Shown here piece after piece: positions 36,747-56,835 of a stretch of DNA of 64,000 nucleotides. The DNA lies in NCBI GenBank assembly GCA_016584305.1, contig JACEEZ010018607.1, forward strand, positions 1 to 64,000. Reading direction: 5' to 3'. Source of the DNA: Chionoecetes opilio. Lineage: Eukaryota > Arthropoda > Malacostraca > Decapoda > Majidae. Each line of letters begins with the position of its first letter. The stretch's first letter is position 1. The notes beneath the pieces were generated by a model, which had not been told where the DNA came from, searched no databases, and saw only the letters and a list, made by a program, of their open reading frames with translations. Made by a program: the position numbers and the translations under genes.

Positions 36747-36807
36747 TAAAAAACATATTATATATATATACTATATATATTATATATAGAATATAATATA
36801 TTTATAC

Positions 36808-36839
<32 letters not shown>

Positions 36840-36893
36840 GATATATATATCATAAATATATGATATATATATATATTATATATATATATGAAT
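36747..36893. repeat. AT dinucleotide microsatellite
   Basis: Nearly pure TA/AT of about 145 bp with a few interruptions. It sits immediately upstream of a LINE fragment. Confidence 0.9.
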
Positions 36894-37203
36894 GAAGTGG
36901 AGAGAGATAGCAGAACTGCTGTTAAACAAGAGTATTCCATTGAAAAGAGATGGCAAGAAAATGTGGATTGAAGGAGCTGATAGTAAGACGATTGAGGTGG
37001 TTTGAGCACGTTAAGAGAAGAGAAGGTGGTGAGGCATTGGGGAGAGCTGTTGGAGTGGAAGTGCCAGGTCGCCATCCACTGGACAGGCTAAGGAAGACAT
37101 GGAAGCAGTGTGTTGAAGAGGATCTGGCATCATTGGGCATTGAAATGGTTGAGACAACGGATAGAGAGTGTTGGAAGCATATCATTGGCCGTCTAACCTC
37201 ATA
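36888..37203 (+). pseudogene. Non-LTR retrotransposon, C-terminal end of RT ORF
   Basis: The plus-strand frame encodes a characteristic post-RT tail: RLRWFEHVKRREGGEALGRA, then EVPGRHPLDRLRKTWKQCV and EEDLASLGIE, ending ECWKHIIGRLTS and a TAA stop at about 37201-37203. The pattern RLRW.GHV.R.....VPG.R..GRP...W..C...DL..LG is common at the end of many LINE polyproteins. It differs from the minus-strand LINE family elsewhere in the window. The catalytic part is missing upstream, where the TA microsatellite begins. The 5.7 kb transposon starts directly after the stop codon. Confidence 0.75.
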
Positions 37204-37211
37204 AAATATTA

Positions 37212-37530
37212 TAGTAGAGGACCCTACCATTGAGCCCGTGACCAATTTCTCCTGATCAAGGTTTGAAGGTGGTTTTTAAATGACTTGAGGATACTGAACA
37301 AAATAAGCTCCCATGTCCCTCGCAAAAGTGCGGGCTAACTCCGCCAGGGGGCAAAATCCAAGATGGCCGCCGTGAAAACTAGATTTGTCATATCTTCACT
37401 CATTTAATAGCTATTAATATGTTCTTGGTGTCTAAATGTATGGTTTTTAGGTCATGGAAAGCAATTAAGACATCATAGAGTGGATTTGTGGACGAAAAGT
37501 CATTGTAATTGAATATTTTATTAAAAAATT
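37212..37530. repeat. Left terminal inverted repeat (~0.32 kb) of the 5.7 kb DNA transposon
   Basis: It begins TAGTAGAGGACC and is the reverse complement of 42600-42921. Landmarks are ATTGAGCCCGTGACCAATTT, TTTAAATGACTTGAGGATAC, GCGGGCTAACTCCGCCAGG, CCAAGATGGCCGCCGTGAAA, TTAATAGCTATTAATATG, GACATCATAGAGTGGATTTG. It is preceded by TTA at 37209-37211. Identity is high throughout, apart from small indels. Confidence 0.9.
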
Positions 37531-38399
37531 AACACGAAAAATGTCAACAATCGTCAATAATCGTATCAAGCATATTTACTCATTATTTACAGTAAAATTT
37601 ATTAAGATATGATTGCCTTATTATCATCTTTTTAATAATATGCCCTTTTTGTTTACAGATTGGAAGTTTGTCGAAACCACCACAGAAAAGTCTAAAAGCG
37701 GAGAATGAAATTCACCATTGGTTTTCCTTATCTTGTGTCTCTTGATTGTGATGAGACGAACACACAACTAGATGCCTGGAAAATCTTAAGGAGCCTGCAA
37801 AGCAAGGGGTAGGGCTGGATATCTTTGGTTCATGTATGATAAAGGGTTGTCTGAGAAAATGGATCGAATGGTGTGTACTTCCACAAAATTGTAAGCGAAC
37901 TTGTTAAATAGTAGAAAACTGAAGCAAAGCCCGAGTCGAAAAGAGAATGCACTGTTTGAAAATGTTGGGAACTGCAGCACAGATGCAAACTGACCTCTTC
38001 GTCAAGTAAAAGGTCCAATTGAAACTGGTACAAGACAAACACGTTCGATCACAGGTTTAGTACATGACAAGAACCTATGCTATGGTGTATGAAACCTGAA
38101 GACCAGAAACATCGCGGAAGAGAAAAGTGGCATATCATGCAACAGCTGAATGCATGGTATGCCTTCAAAAGCCACAATGTGTACTTAGAAGATCTTACCA
38201 TGAGAGAACGGCTGTTGACCTTTATTGAGTAAACTTCAGACCCATTTCCCAGTTGAAATCCGTTATCACCGAACATGTTGGGTTAAAGTACATATCAGCC
38301 ACTTCAGATACAGGAAAAGATGATCCCAATCTTCATCTGCAGCATGTGCATTTATCAGAAGTAAAAGAGATGTGGTTCAAACATATTCAAATTTGTGCT

Positions 38400-41300
38400 G
38401 GAGCAGCATGAACTTCGCACATTACGGAGCCTTCTTCAAGATTATATGCGAGCTGCGTAATTTTGGAATAAATGTTGGAGTGGTGAAATCATGCCCATCA
38501 AAACATGATACGGGAAGAATTTCACGATCACATAGGCTTTCATGAACGTACCAGAAGAACCACAGTGCTTTGGGTTTATGATACCTATTCTGGGGGTAGT
38601 TATGCAGAACTGCTATCAACTGCTGGGGTGTAACTGACGACCAACTGATTTTGACCGTAGCACAACGGATCAATGCACATGCATCACAGGCACAATGATG
38701 TCATGGCCACATCATGTCGATGATTTGGTGGACTCGGAGGACTGGGACGAGCTCTTGTACAAATTTGAAACCCCTTTTTTGAAGAACCGAAGGCTGGTGA
38801 AGACCAAAAAGACCCGGCAGTTCTGGCACTGACATCTCTGCTAACTTCATACATAACGGGGAAACGAACATCATTCAAGGTGAAGCTGGCAGTGACGCTA
38901 CATGGCCTGACTCGAAGTCAAAAAATAATTGACTTGATGCAAAAGTTTTCTCTTGGAATCAGCTACAAGGATGTTCTGAATCTTTATGATGCATGGGCCA
39001 AGTTTGACATCGAAACAAATAGACATGTCCTGATGAGCTTGCCATGGGCCAACCAGGAAACAGCAGTTATGGACATGATGACTTCAAGACGATACTCTGA
39101 CTGGAGCCAAACACATCTCATCGAACCCAAATTTGTCATGTTTGTCCAGCCAAAAGATTTGTGGAGACTTCTGCTGTTTCACGTCAATCTCTGAGCATTC
39201 CCACAGCCGACGATATGAAAGCTCAGTGTGCTTCTCAACATCTTGTACAGCCATACAAAACAGTTCAACGGGGTACACCAAGCAAAACCTAGCAGCCAAT
39301 ATCGAAGCCCCATATGACACAAATATGCAGCGTAAGAGAAGCCTTATTCATGTATTGGCACGTCTTGATGAGAATATGAAGCCCAGAGTAGTTTTCTGAA
39401 CAAACCGTGGGTGCCTTTGCAGGATTCCAAGCCTCTGTTCAGCCTTCAGTGGTGAAGAGCAAACCCATTTTTTTCCTGACATTCCCAAATCCACCACATA
39501 ATCGTGGTTCATGAAGTGATGAAGAGATTAGTACTTGTAGCTATAGCCAAGAACATGCCATTCATACAGCTAGTTGGTGATCAGCCTGTGTTGGACAATG
39601 AGCACACTCATTGTCCAAATTCCGGTATGAACACCCAGACCAATTTAACATCATCTTCCCTTGTATGGGGCCTTTTCCACATACATTGCTCATTTATCTA
39701 TTCCATCGACAAACGCTTCCATGGATCGGGTTTGTCAGATGTTCTCGTCATGGGCAGGAGTAATCGCAGAAGGTTCTGTTGACCAGGCATTAAGAGCAAA
39801 CACTACAAGAGAAGCATTCGATGTCCCGCGCTTGATGTTGAAGCACTCATGCGAACTCATATTATACAGCCTGTGCTATGGTGCTTCTGTGCCCGAAGAT
39901 GTCAAAAGTCAACTGGTGATTTTTAGAGACCCATCATCATCCTTCCAAGAATGTCAACAGAGCCCATGCCTTACTAGATCAATCCCAAACATCATAACTA
40001 TCGTTGCAGAAGAGTTTGAAAGGATAACAAATTCAGGTACTCCAATGGCGATGTCTTTTCTTGAGATGACTGAGATTCTGATGATGAACTGCATGCCCTA
40101 AGAACTCAGAAATGGGAAGAATTCAAAGCATCTCTACGTTTGATGTTGCCCTGGATGCAGATCTATGACAACAGCAAATATAGAAGGTGGATGGTGGAGT
40201 ACTGGCCCGGAGCTGAGCAATCTTCCTGAGGAGAGAACAGCCTACATGAGGGATGGTTTGTTTTCCCAGTCAATCACTGGTAAACCTTATTCTTGTTTAC
40301 CTCTTGATCTGTGGATAAGATGACCATGAACAAAGGATCGAAGATGAAAAGCTGGTTTTGGGTTAAAATCCTCAAAAATGAGAAGGTGTTGCTCACTGAT
40401 TCAAGAAATGTTAACTCCGTCACCAAGTCAGATCATCTCTACATACCATGGCACAGAGTACCCTGTCAAACAGCAACAGTGAAAACACAAAAACACGTTT
40501 GAAGCTGGATGAGCCCGGCGGTACAGGGTATTGATAGCTGCATCACTGAATTTTCCTGTGACCCATTCAACACAGACAATCCTAATCTGAGATCACTTCA
40601 ATCTGGTGTTCTGGCTTCTACTGCACTTGTTGATGACTTCGAGTCTGCTCATCACGATGGTGAAGATCTGTTCAGGATATTCTGCAATGACTGCATGTTG
40701 AGTGATAAAATGCCATTTTACTCTACAGTGCACAGAAACTCACGACGGAACTTCAGTAATCCACCACCTGTCATAGGTGACAATACTGACAAGGTTACCA
40801 AATCAGAGGCCATGGAGAACAAGGCAATGGCGTCCATCATAGCACTAGCAGAAGCCCACGACGACAAGTTTAAACCTCATTAACGGATGGAATAAACGAG
40901 TGACAGATGAATGTTTGCCTATATACAACATTAACGGGACAATGAAAAGACCCAAAAGTCCAAATTGGTGGGTAAATTATATATGGAGACCTTGGATTCC
41001 AAGGAGTACATTGCTATAGTTGATATGGGATTCATATGGCGTCTTGTCAACCTCATCATTTGAGGACCGTGAACAATTAGATGGTACTAGCTTCACATGG
41101 GGGGATTATGCTTCCAATGTTTGTCCATAATAATGTCCCAGACACAAAAATGCTTCAAAAATTGTGTTGGTGAATGACCGCTATGACTTGCGATTTACCA
41201 TCAAAGACAGTTAATGAAATCTTCGCTCTAGTAATATTGAAGGCTCTAAACATCTTCATCCGGCTTCAGACAAATTTCCCTCAGCTAGAGCTTTCCAGGA

Positions 41301-41830
41301 TTTGTTGCACAATCCAGCTAATAAACAACGCTTGCAGTCATTTCTCCAAAATGAGATCCGTCTAAGGTGCTGTGAACATCCCAATGTCCAGTTTGTATAA
41401 ATTTAGTGGGTCCAAAGTGTTGGAATTTATCCACAGGAGACAGAATTGGCAATTTTGAAGTGAACACATCGAAGCAGACACGATTCTCTTCTTTATATAT
41501 TCCCAAATCAGAAATCAGCATTGATACTGATGTTTGTCATTGATGCTGAAGATACAGACGTTCTAGTTTTGTCTGCATATGTTGCCCATACAATAGATGG
41601 AGTGTTAGCAGTCAAGAGGGAAAAAGAACATCATAGATTGTAAAAACTATGCTCCAAAGAGGTAGCAGAGATTATAGTTCAATTACATATTCACAGCGGA
41701 TCAGACACCACAACTGCCTTTTTTGGCCACGGGAAAAAGCATCAATTTTACCAAGGGAATCTCAGATGATGCTCGTGCTCTGCTGTGTTGTTTTGGCAAA
41801 TCATTGCCGGTCACAGTCTGTTCTGAATGA
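38400..41830 (+). pseudogene. Broken transposon protein with XPG/FEN-like C-terminal domain
   Basis: Collinear plus-strand segments in shifting frames form one former ORF. The N-terminal part includes ICELRNFGINVGVV (about 38440). Next comes TSLLTSYITGKRTSF, LAVTLHGLTRSQKIIDLMQ and ISYKDVLNLYDAWA (38835-39000), then KFVMFVQPKD, and FHIHCSFIYSIDKRFHGSGL (39670-39730). These are followed by AGVIAEGSVDQALR, WEEFKASLRLMLPWMQIYDN (about 40110-40170), RDGLFSQSITGKPYSCLPLD (40250-40310) and DSCITEFSCDPF. The last third holds CWNLSTGDRIG (about 41430), EADTI (about 41470), VIDAEDTDVLVLSAYVAHTI (41539-41600) and SGSDTTTAFFGHGKK (41695-41740). The E-A-D, D-x-D and G-x-D order resembles the XPG-I/FEN active site. 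There are many frameshifts and stops; some may be sequencing error. Confidence 0.7.
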
Positions 41831-42599
41831 CATGGCAATATTCCCTTAAGATACATCTATAATGACAAGGTGAGCAAATCTATGGGTGAAGCAAGGCACG
41901 AAATGGAACCAGATGAAGAGAAAATCAAAACCTGAGACTTCCACCCATAGAGATTCACATGACCTGAAGGTAAAAAGAGGAAAATTTTCAAACACACATG
42001 CTTCTTTAATTTCATAAGGTAATCCTTCTCCGTCTCCACTTTCACATGGATGGGCTGTTGAGAATGGCTTGTGTAAGCCAGTGCGATACACAAGACCACA
42101 CTACCAATGCATTTGAAGGATGTCGTTCAACTTCAAGACCTAACACCAGGAGATACTGATTCAGGAGAGAGCGATTCATATGATGAAGACGAGGATAATG
42201 ACATTGTGTATAATATTGCCCATTCATGTTATCCTAATTGTCAGTTAAATAGTTATGATAGGGTGTTGGATTTTGCCTGATTTATCTGAAATATGTAATG
42301 AGTTAGGATAAATCAATAATTGTTTTCAATTTGATTAAACAAATTAATTCATGTATATTGGCATTGAAAACCTTTGGTCTGAAAAACCTATTTGTTGACA
42401 CCTAGAATACATCGGTAAATACACATCTAATAGAACAAATTCAAATTGTGTATCAGCCATATCGTGTTACTTGGAGTTCTTGTAACACTTTTTTGAGATG
42501 TATTGGGCTACATCTTTTTTCAGTAACATCAACTTGAGTTATAATCCAGTGAAAAAAAGCTTCATGTGATTAGTGCCCAATAAGCATGAATGTTTTCTC

Positions 42600-42921
42600 T
42601 TCTTTTTTTAATATAATAATAAATTACAATGATTTTTTTGTCCACAAATCCACTCTATGATGTCTTTATTGTTTTCCCTTGACCTAAAAAAAACATACAT
42701 TAGACACCAAGAACATATTAATAGCTATTAAATGAGTGAAGATATGACAAATCTAGTTTTCACGGCGGCCATCTTGGATTTTGCCCCTGGCGGAGTTAGC
42801 CCACACTTTTGCGAGGGACATGGGGGCTTTTTTTTGTTCAGTATCCTCAAGTCATTTAAAAACCACCTTCAAACCTTGATCAGGGAAATTGGTCACGGGC
42901 TCAATGGTAGGTCCTCTACTA
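42600..42921. repeat. Right terminal inverted repeat of the 5.7 kb DNA transposon
   Basis: Reverse complement of 37212-37530, ending GGTCCTCTACTA and followed by TTA at 42922-42924. The sequence after it (AAATTGACTTTAAATAG) may be the 3' untranslated part of the LINE interrupted at 37211. Confidence 0.9.
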
Positions 42922-42961
42922 TTATGGGAAAATTGACTTTAAATAGAAAGAAGAAATATGG

Positions 42962-43017
42962 TGTGGGTGTTTTGTGTGTGGTGTGTGTGTGTGTGTGTGT
43001 GTGTTTGTGTGTGTGTG

Positions 43018-43052
<35 letters not shown>
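42962..43052 (+). repeat. TG dinucleotide microsatellite
   Basis: About 90 bp of TG units with a few TT or GG interruptions. LINE copy B begins exactly at its end. Confidence 0.9.
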
Positions 43053-43055
<3 letters not shown>

Positions 43056-43237
43056 ATTTACCTAGTTGTATTTATCTAGTTGTAACATACAGGAAAAGAG
43101 CTATGCTCGTACTGTCCCGTCCCCAAAAATCTACTATTATCCAGCTTGCCTTTGAAGTCCTGAATACTTCTTGCATTAATCATTTTTGCATCAAGGTAAT
43201 CCAGGCTTCTAGCTACTATACGGGAAGCTGTATTTTT
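43053..43237 (-). mobile_element. LINE copy B, 3' fragment
   Basis: It begins with the family's 3' terminal tandem motif (TTACCTAGTTGTATTTATCTAG on the plus strand) and AACATACAGGAAAAGAGCTATG. It then covers the last ~45 codons of the ORF tail and is cut at about 43237 by G-rich sequence. It is severely 5'-truncated and sits directly next to a TG microsatellite. Confidence 0.85.
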
Positions 43238-44019
43238 TTACGGGGGCGGGCCACAGTGGCCCCTAGAAGCTACTCTCGGGATTACAGGAAGTTTAAATTA
43301 ATCAAAAACCTTTGGCCTAATCAAAAAACCTTTTCTTAATTAGGTATATTGAATTGAAAGTAGTTAGTTTCGTACACTGATTTTGAGTATTTTCGTACAT
43401 AACCTGGTGTCGTTTCGTAACTCTAGTAGTCAAGTTCACTCTGAGCTGAGTGTACGAAACGACTATGGTTTCATATAGACTACGAAACAACTTTTGGTAT
43501 AATGGACGAGAGTTTTTGTGGTCTTTTTCCAGAGACACCAACTATTTTTTTCTTGGCCTACCAATAGGTGCTTGTTGTAATGGAGATAGTTTATTTTGCG
43601 CAAACCCCCCCCCCCCAAAAAAAAAATAATAATAATGAAACCTAACCAAACCCCATAGACCACTGTATACCTGGACTGCGCACGAATATCAGCCTGTCGC
43701 ACAAAGGCCTGTAATCGGAAAGGGCCGCTCGGATTCATATTATATATAAAACGGATCATATAGACTGTTTATCAGTATATATGAAATACTCTAATCTTCG
43801 TAAATGTTTGTTCTATAATATTATCAAATAAAAAAAAAGTAAAACATGCTAAAGAAATGCCCTTACGAGACTATGAAAAAATATGCATGAAGTTTGACTT
43901 CACTTCAACTCTTCGCCATTTAAAATTTTGCGAGTCAACTTTTATATGAAGGGTATCAATAGAAGCGCCAATTTTTTTTAGCTTTTTCCTTGCTATATTT
44001 CGTTATCTGATAAATTTAA

Positions 44020-44232
44020 ATTTGAACCATGCATAAATTAGCGTTAAATAAACAAATAAAATCATCAATCGGGTAATTTTCCCGATTGATGAGGTTATTT
44101 ATTTAGTCAACGCTAATTTTACATGGTACTAATTTATTTATCAGAAAACGAAATTATAAGTAAATGAATAACCCCATCAATCAGGAAAATTTCCCGATTG
44201 ATGATTTTATTTATTTATTTAATGCTAATTTA
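44020..44232. repeat. Nested palindrome at the foldback centre
   Basis: ATCATCAATCGGG.AATTTTCCCGATTGATGA at about 44062-44092 is a hairpin, and CCATCAATCAGGAAAATTTCCCGATTGATGA at about 44172-44204 repeats it. GTTAAATAAA.AAATAAA/TTTATTTATTTAATGCTAATTT pair across the whole interval. GCTAATTTTACATGGTACTAATTTATTTATCAG is a third version of the arm tip. Confidence 0.7.
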
Positions 44233-44249
44233 TGCATGGTTCTAATTAA

Positions 44250-44421
44250 GAGATAAGATTTTCATCCTATCTAGACACTTTGCAAGTACCCAACTACAAA
44301 GGGTTTTTGACTATACAAAGCGCCGCCACGTCAGCACGAGCTAGGCGGACTCGAACCGCTGACCAGGGACGCTGCGCATTGCGAACTCACGCGCTACCCA
44401 ACCTTGCCACCCCCGACGGGC
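44250..44421 (-). mobile_element. tRNA-derived SINE (~172 bp) with 13 bp target duplication
   Basis: Read on the minus strand, the insertion starts AGCCCGTCGGGGGTGGC with an A-box-like TGGCAAGGTTGGGTAGCG and a perfect B box GGTTCGAGTCC (plus 44346-44359 region), followed by a ~85 bp non-tRNA body. It is flanked by exact direct repeats TGGTTCTAATTAA at 44237-44249 and 44422-44434. These fix both boundaries and show insertion into the foldback arm. Pol III transcription is the known mode for such elements; mobilisation by a LINE is inferred. Confidence 0.8.
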
Positions 44422-44807
44422 TGGTTCTAATTAATTTATCAGATAACGAAATATAGCAATGGAAAGCTAATAAAATTGCACTTCTATTGATACCTTTATG
44501 ATAAAAATTGACTCGCCAAAGTTTAAATGGCGAAGAGTTAAATGAAAATTAAGTTCATGCATATTTCTTCATAGTCTCGTAATGGCATTTCTTTAGCGTG
44601 TTTTACTGTTTTTTATTTTTATAATATTATAGAACAAACATTTACGAAGATTACAGTATATCATATATACTGATAAACCAGTCTATATAATTGTCCATAG
44701 ACCACTATATCTCTTTGTCGGGCGCCCCGCAGGCCCCTATGCAGCCCCGCAATTCAAAACATTGTCTCGTGCGCAGTTCCAGGTATACAGTGGTCTATGC
44801 CTAACCT

Positions 44808-45055
44808 TATAGGTTTTAATAAAACCTAACCTAACCTTATAGGTTTCAATGAAACCGAACCTAGCTAACCTTAAAGGTTTTAATGAAACCTAACCTAACC
44901 TTATAGGTTTTAATGAAACCTAACCTAACCTTAAGGTTTTAATGAAACCTAACCTAACCTTATAGGTTTTAATGAACACTAACCTAACCTTAAAGGTTTT
45001 AATGAAACCTAACCTAACCTTATAGGTTGTAATGAAACCTAACCTAACTTTAACC
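44808..45055 (+). repeat. CCTAA-containing 30 bp minisatellite, ~8 units
   Basis: The unit is AGGTTTTAATGAAACCT followed by AACCTAACCTTA, about 30 bp. Each unit contains an AGGTTT..AAACCT hairpin plus two CCTAA telomere-like units. Copies alternate TTATAGG and TTAAAGG at the join. The array lies inside the right arm of the foldback. Confidence 0.85.
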
Positions 45056-45285
45056 ACAAAGTATACTTTTTTTTCTCTTTTTTTTTCTCGCAAAATAAAG
45101 CTATCTCCATTAGAACAAGCACCGCTTTATTAGGAAGCGCTATGATCATTTGTATCATAACCGCACTCAGGTCTGTATGCATTTTGCTCATCAAAACACA
45201 GATCACCGTGTAATAGTTTCGTTGAGCAGCTCAGTGAAATCTGCTGTGAGCAGAAAAGTGCCCGTGTAATACTGGCTTTACTCAC

Positions 45286-54614: not shown

Positions 54615-56835
54615 GAGATAACAATGGTCAGGGGCAGTGATAGATAACAATGGTCAGGGGCAGTGATAGATAACAATGGTCAGGGGCAGTGATAGATAAC
54701 AATGGTCAGGGGCAGTGATAGATAACAATGGTCAGGGGCAGTGATAGATAACAATGGTCAGGGGCAGTGATAGATAACAATGGTCAGGGGCAGGATAGAT
54801 AACAATGGTCAGGGGCAGTGATAGATAACAATGGTCAGGGGCTGTGATAGATAACAATGGTCAGGGGCAGTGATAGATAACAATGGTCAGGGGCTGTGAT
54901 AGATAACAAAGGTCAGGGGCTGTGATAGATAACAATGGTCAGGGGCTGTGATAGGTAACAATGGTCAGGGGCAGTGATAGATAACAATGGTCAGGGGCAG
55001 TGATAGATAACAATGGTCAGGGGCAGTGATAGATAACAATGGTCAGGGACAGTGATAGATAACAATGGTCAGGGGCTGTGATAGATAACAATGGTCAGGG
55101 GCAGTGATAGATAACAATGGTCAGGGGCAGTGATAGATAACAAAGGTCAGGGGTTGTGATAGATAACAATGGTCAGGGGCAGTGATAGATAACAATGGTC
55201 AGGGGCTGTGATAGATAACAATGGTCAGGGGCAGTGATAGATAACAATGGTCAGGGGCTGTGATAGATAACAAAGGTCAGGGGCAGTGATAGATAACAAT
55301 GGTCAGGGGCAGTGATAGATAACAATGGTCAGGGGCAGTGATAGATATCAATGGTCAGGGGCAGTGATAGATAACAATGGTCAGGGGCTGTGATAGATAA
55401 CAATGGTCAGGGGCTGTGATAGATAACAATGGTCAGGGGCAGTGATAGATAACAATGGTCAGGGGCAGTGATAGATAACAAAGGTCAGGGGCAGTGATAG
55501 ATAACAATGGTCAGGGGCAGTGATAGATAACAATGGTCAGGGGCTGTGATAGATAACAATGGTCAGGGGCAGTGATAGATAACAATGGTCAAGGGCTGTG
55601 ATAGATAACAATGATCAGGGGCTGTGATAGATAACAATGGTCAGGGGTTGTGATAGATAACAATGGTCAGGGGTTGTGATAGATAACAATGGTCAGGGGC
55701 TGTGATAGATAACAAAGGTCAGGGGCTGTGATAGATAACAATGGTCAGGGGCTGTGATAGGTAACAATGGTCAGGGGCAGTGATAGATAACAATGGTCAG
55801 GGGCAGTGATAGATAACAATGGTCAGGGGCAGTGATAGATAACAATGGTCAGGGGCAGTGATAGATAACAATGGTCAGGGGCTGTGATAGAGAACAATGG
55901 TCAGAGGCTGTGATAGATAAACAATGGTCAGGGGCAGATAGATAACAATGGTCAGGGACAGTGATAGATAACAATGGTCAGGGGCTGTGATAGATAACAA
56001 TGGTCAGGGGCTGTGATAGATAACAATGGTCAGGGGCTGTGATAGATAACAATGGTCAGGGGCTGTGATAGATAACAATGGTCAGGGGCAGTGATAGATA
56101 ACAATGGTCAAGGGTTGTGAGAGGTAACAATGGTCAGGGGCTGTGATAGATAACAATGATCAGGGTCTGTGATAGATAACAATGGTCAGGGGCTGTGATA
56201 GATAACAATGGTCAGGGGCTGTGATAGATAACAATGGTCAGGGGCAGTGATAGATAACAATGGTCAAGGGTTGTGAGAGGTAACAATGGTCAGGGGTTGT
56301 GATAGATAACAATGGTCAGGGGTTGTGATAGATAACAATGGTCAGGGGCTGTGATAGATAACAATGGTCAGGGGTTGTGATAGATAACAATGGTCAGGGG
56401 CTGTGATAGATAACAATGGTCAGGGGTTGTGATAGATAACAATGGTCAGGGGCTGTGATAGATAACAATGGTCAGGGGTTGTGATAGATAACAATGGTCA
56501 GGGGTTGTGATAGATAACAATGGTCAGGGGCTGTGATAGATAACAATGGTCAGGGGTTGTGATAGATAACAATGGTCAGGGGCTGTGATAGATAACAATG
56601 GTCAGGGTTGTGATAGATAACAATGGTCAGGGGCTGTGATAGATAACAATGGTCAGGGGTTGTGATAGATAACAATGGTCAGGGGTTGTGATAGATAACA
56701 ATGGTCAGGGGCTGTGATGTATAACAATGGTCAGGGGTTGTGATAGATAACAAAGATCAGGGGTTGTGATAGATAACAAATGGGCAGGGGCTGTGATAGG
56801 TAACAATGGTCGGGAGCTGTGATCGATAACAAGGT
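54615..56835 (+). repeat. 26 bp minisatellite, ~85 units, with higher-order structure
   Basis: Head-to-tail units of GATAACAATGGTCAGGGG plus (CAG/CTG/TTG)TGATA. Three subtypes differ at the trinucleotide after GGGG. The CAG type dominates the left half; CTG and TTG alternate on the right. A seven-unit pattern TTG-TTG-CTG-TTG-CTG-TTG-CTG (182 bp) occurs twice in a row at about 56290-56650 and starts a third time. Private variants are also duplicated at whole-unit distances. No spacers exist, so it is not CRISPR-like. Confidence 0.95.

Follow-up and report, generated by a model that had tools for sequence, protein, structure and literature searches.

What kind of mobile element lies at positions 37,212 to 42,921 of the Chionoecetes opilio contig JACEEZ010018607.1 (assembly GCA_016584305.1), and what is a nuclease-like domain doing in the protein that it encodes? 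The stretch analyzed, referred to here as the window, comprises positions 1 to 64,000 of the forward strand of this contig. The element is very probably one copy of a family of Academ-type (AcademX-like) DNA transposons bounded by terminal inverted repeats (TIRs), encoding one protein of about 1500 amino acids with a zinc-finger-like N-terminus, a winged-helix-like domain, a probable DDE core and a C-terminal nuclease of the FEN/XPG type.

The limits of the element given by the initial annotation are exact, with the first or last TIR base and an adjoining TTA, one copy of the target site duplication (TSD), on each side:

37209..37211, no strand assigned: left TSD copy, TTA, 3 bp, read from the flank.
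37212..37528, plus strand: left TIR, with outer end TAGTAGAGGACC, 93.5% identical over 323 aligned columns to the right end.
42604..42921, minus strand: right TIR, aligned to the left TIR.
42922..42924, no strand assigned: right TSD copy, TTA, 3 bp, read from the flank.

The outermost letters of the element are TAGTAGAGG...CCTCTACTA, with TTA outside each end, and the inverted repeats, described beforehand as near-identical and about 0.32 kb long, are confirmed as such. In a longer alignment of the TIRs, 346 of 391 columns are identical, the weaker inner similarity reaching about position 37586. The TSD was read from 21 regions (20 fetched from the assembly and the window), 10 of which have both TIRs complete from the first base; the other 11 were dropped from the count, as the second complete end is missing or an end is truncated. 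All 10 rows with both ends have termini that start with TAGTAGA. One of them (L042) is a duplicate of another (L035; 99.5% over 9010 columns), leaving nine distinct insertions, and every one of these has an exact 3-bp TSD, whereas none has a 4-bp TSD. The triplet is TTA in four insertions, and ATC, TAT, CTA, TAG and CGA in one each. The TTA flanks reported initially thus hold for the window copy but not as a general rule, and TTA as a fixed target is rejected: the TSD is 3 bp long and variable in sequence. Duplications of another length had been proposed as evidence against the element as described, and no length other than 3 bp was found in the nine insertions.

Collecting further copies by TIR search established that the element is multicopy. 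In the 1.94-Gb assembly (20,818 contigs), in which all copy searches were made, the left TIR matches 40 scored places (of 399 first-look candidates) at 96–100% identity, excluding chance. A search with the protein of one relative, P0001, produced 42 matches (31 scored, out of 6373 candidates); as these range from 43 to 66% identity, the genome probably holds more than one subfamily of the transposon. The fetched copy L040 contains the entire reading frame, interrupted by three in-frame stops and one frameshift. Five others (L031, L034, L045, L046 and L047) each cover 99% of L040 at a mean identity of 94.8–96.0%, the window copy has the same coverage at 93.3%, and the remaining 14 fetched copies cover 15–66%, with some of these regions entering masked stretches.

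One insertion, L036, sits within an interspersed repeat. When its flanks were joined with a single TTA, the junction was crossed in 40 of 41 listed rows (40 of 3275 candidates scored), and 30 of the 41 matched end to end. Two of these empty places were read, and both align without gaps but have GTA at the target triplet, which identifies them as diverged paralogues rather than the original empty allele. The expectation of an empty site with one TTA was therefore borne out as to gapless unoccupied places for L036, but not as to the triplet. The flanking repeat is very abundant (3275 first-look candidates), an example being G000:C15985:262949-263133, and a TTATTTTCTTATGTTCTTATGTT-like stretch is found past the insertion.

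The protein and its parts are placed in the window as follows, residue counts being those of the diverse alignment A4 of relatives:

37668..42208, plus strand: transposon protein coding region, with many frameshifts and stops here, and about 1500 amino acids long in full-length relatives.
37735..38103, plus strand: N-terminal zinc-finger-like Cys/His motifs, with the fragments VSLDCDE and WCMKPED (motif places in the translation).
39074..39088, plus strand: probable DDE core, first acid block: DNDDF in relatives, damaged in the window copy.
39573..39590, plus strand: probable DDE core, second acid block: VGDQPV, with D636 in 20/20 A4 sequences.
40303..40317, plus strand: block LDLWI, with a conserved E downstream in relatives; the frame is lost in the window copy.
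41016..41739, plus strand: FEN/XPG-like nuclease domain, with blocks IVDMGFIW, VLVNDRYD, IEADTI, VIDAEDTDV and SGSDTTTAFFGHGKK; fold modelled for the relative P0019.

With the L040 read-through as the query (E ≤ 0.001, 5830 candidates), 39 relatives were found (P0001–P0039), of which 17 are 1499–1566 amino acids long; for 16 of these 17, the longest contig is 4.9–6.9 kb. A second search with the most distant relative returned at least 63 proteins including itself (best 7994 candidates scored), and a third, using a 20-row profile at E ≤ 1e-10, at least 46 (best 7989 scored). Holders include Nymphon, Nucella, Ruditapes, Mercenaria, Dreissena, Mya, Holothuria, Oculina and Clytia, several of the proteins being partial. 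The relatives are named “uncharacterized” or “hypothetical”, except for the Holothuria protein, which UniRef calls Tesmin/TSO1-like CXC domain-containing; the distant branch (P0039 onward, A4 majority line) has a C-terminal cysteine cluster that fits this label, and no such cluster was seen in the A1 consensus. The highest identity to the read-through among the 39 belongs to P0010 of the sea spider Nymphon striatum (69% over one third of the length). A family protein, P0028, is also found on a 5.9-kb contig of a bacterial metagenome-assembled genome named “Sedimenticola sp.”, which is most easily explained as contamination by animal host DNA. Pattern matches for relatives among viral contigs (111) and prokaryote genome contigs (185) yielded none that was confirmed, and consequently no independent locus outside of the genome on which to read the TIRs. 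At the N-terminus, the conserved Cys/His columns (C17, C20, C24, H71, C74, C132, C135, H195 and C198 in P0001 numbering) are zinc-finger-like, and metal binding is predicted from them.

The initial annotation proposed an XPG/FEN-like nuclease from blocks in a broken plus-strand protein. These blocks are present (IEADTI at 41468–41485, VIDAEDTDV at 41536–41562 and SGSDTTTAFFGHGKK at 41695–41739, in two reading frames), but many of the breaks occur in this contig alone and are probably sequencing noise, as discussed below. The nuclease assignment itself is upheld, since the proposed check by structure model matches the relative P0019 to the FEN/XPG fold, and the seven metal-binding acids of this 5′ nuclease superfamily are present and conserved among the relatives in A4; nuclease activity is predicted. 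No FEN chain was found in the PDB with phmmer and one protein piece or with a profile of 26 relatives, and Pfam returned no FEN family, its sole nuclease trace being 5_3_exonuc_N at E 0.08. The domain thus differs from the 5′ nucleases FEN1, EXO1, XPG and XRN1 in being fused to a probable transposase and in having no Pfam or PDB profile match at the sequence level.

The model of the middle domain suggests that it is probably a DDE core of the RNase H fold, containing a helical insertion. The 16 structure matches listed over it are DDE recombinases alone, with Hermes as the best, and the alignment of relatives retains the D-D-E set (D468, D636 and E883), E883 being present in 19/19 A4 sequences that have a residue there. 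In structural alignments, Hermes (hAT), ISCth4 (IS256/MULE type), Transib and RAG1 share 7–11% identity with this domain, and unlike all four, the element protein has an extra FEN-type domain. Its TSD of 3 bp also contrasts with those of hAT (8 bp) and Transib (5 bp), so that hAT membership is rejected despite the match to Hermes. Two acids of the probable DDE core, the second and the third, lie within the Pfam PF20231 (DUF6589) match, so that this family probably represents a transposase domain; none of the papers searched contains the name DUF6589. The transposase nuclease could conceivably be the FEN-type domain, with no DDE chemistry and with a middle domain that only binds DNA or holds the complex, but this is quite unlikely given the uniform structure matches and the retained D-D-E set. 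Moreover, DDE strand transfer yields clean short TSDs with precise ends, and these are what the nine insertions display.

Since FEN-type genes are universal among hosts, the nuclease could also be cargo, a fragment of a host XPG/FEN gene that was captured by an unrelated transposon. This is highly improbable, as both motif sets occur in the same order in 17/17 relatives of 1499–1566 amino acids and in the diverse set A4, and as single genome matches cross both domains (for example, P0001 residues 293–1408 and 192–1362). Exceptions are P0010, whose parts are arranged differently, and P0021, P0030 and P0031, which stop before the nuclease. The fusion of DDE core and nuclease is thus old, contradicting the notion of cargo.

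To which superfamily does such a transposon belong? Academ elements have a Cys-rich zinc finger near the N-terminus, and an XPG-type nuclease is one of their features in Repbase reports; among the listed papers that mention Academ, none mentions XPG, the link being that of the Repbase reports, and absence from print is not claimed. PMC10045372 describes a nuclease and 3–4 bp TSDs for AcademX and 9–10 bp TSDs for AcademH, with helicase and nuclease across the two lineages. Academ is listed among the DDD/E superfamilies in PMC9587614, and PMC10294476 reports 100 bivalve Academ elements curated with DDE/D profiles and averaging 5565 bp in length. The element resembles AcademX in being a TIR-bounded DNA transposon, probably of DDD/E class, with a 3-bp TSD, an encoded XPG-like nuclease domain and a length near this mean, and differs from AcademH in its TSD (PMC10045372 and PMC10294476). 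No helicase family, as would mark AcademH, was found when 26 relatives were scanned against Pfam. The probable Academ type proposed initially is supported in this way by traits, and the element is best filed as AcademX-like on the grounds of its size, its 3-bp TSD, the nuclease and the probable DDE core.

Confidence in this assignment is slightly reduced by the third DDE acid, which falls in a low-confidence part of both structure models. The element could instead belong to another superfamily with 3-bp TSDs, which are common to EnSpm/CACTA and Zator, or to an unnamed sister of Academ, and we regard this as unlikely. The ends are TAGTAGA in 10/10 rows and not the CACTA/CACTG of EnSpm/CACTA, and, to our knowledge, a FEN-type nuclease within the transposase protein has been reported, among known superfamilies, for Academ only. 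PMC10045372 ties a nuclease with 3–4 bp TSDs to AcademX.

How might an Academ-type protein with these domains work? We infer a cut-and-paste route, along with its sequence of events, the binding to DNA and the two enzymatic activities. In the most likely mechanism, the N-terminal domains would bind the long TIRs, and the DDE core would cleave the ends and insert them into target DNA at positions staggered by 3 bp, resulting in the 3-bp TSD. At the donor or target junction, the FEN-type domain would trim the non-transferred strand, removing its 5′ ends or flaps. Tentatively, Academ-type transposases may be two-nuclease machines, in which a RAG/Hermes-like DDE core (seen by Pfam only as DUF6589) and a catalytically competent flap endonuclease are in one chain, the latter carrying out an indispensable step, for instance the processing of the second strand or of flaps.

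The damage in the window copy has a bearing on how the locus is read. L031, on contig C6096, represents the same insertion (95.9% over 8556 columns, flanks counted in), and window positions 36758–45210 differ from it by 138 mismatches and 199 gap openings. When six full-length copies were aligned, the private changes were 104 substitutions, 42 deletions and 36 insertions in the window copy, 3, 1 and 2 in L031, and 55–105, 4–7 and 1–7 in the other four. As two alleles or duplicates are expected to gain changes at about the same rate, this lopsidedness suggests that most of the frameshifts in the window copy are probably sequencing or assembly errors, and it weakens the idea of an old, heavily decayed fossil. 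Open stretches of up to 592 amino acids persist in L031. The gaps in the flanks are mostly of 1–2 bases (31/33 left, 48/49 right) and are assignable to neither contig without a third sequence. The window contig (G000:C14273) resembles an unpolished duplicate of part of C6096, the private changes in the element being nearly all on the window side, and gene calls elsewhere in the window should consequently be read with caution. Left of the left TIR, an open frame at 36944–37204 resembles, by eye, the end of a non-LTR retrotransposon protein, and a minisatellite occupies 54616–56832 (26-bp unit, about 85 copies, 94% matches).

As an element, this transposon is ordinary, a further family in a described superfamily. 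Beyond the nuclease fold, the analysis adds a probable DDE core within that chain, a 3-bp target of variable sequence, an empty site, the pattern of conservation and a probable contig artefact as the source of much of the breakage in the window copy. A set of animal “uncharacterized proteins” thereby receives a structural account as transposon proteins with two nuclease folds, Pfam DUF6589 receives a candidate function, and the role of a FEN-type nuclease inside a transposase becomes a testable question. If Academ-type transposases are indeed two-nuclease machines, these transposons would carry their own flap endonuclease, with no need of hairpins or of repair enzymes borrowed from the host, and DUF6589 proteins as a whole would be transposases.
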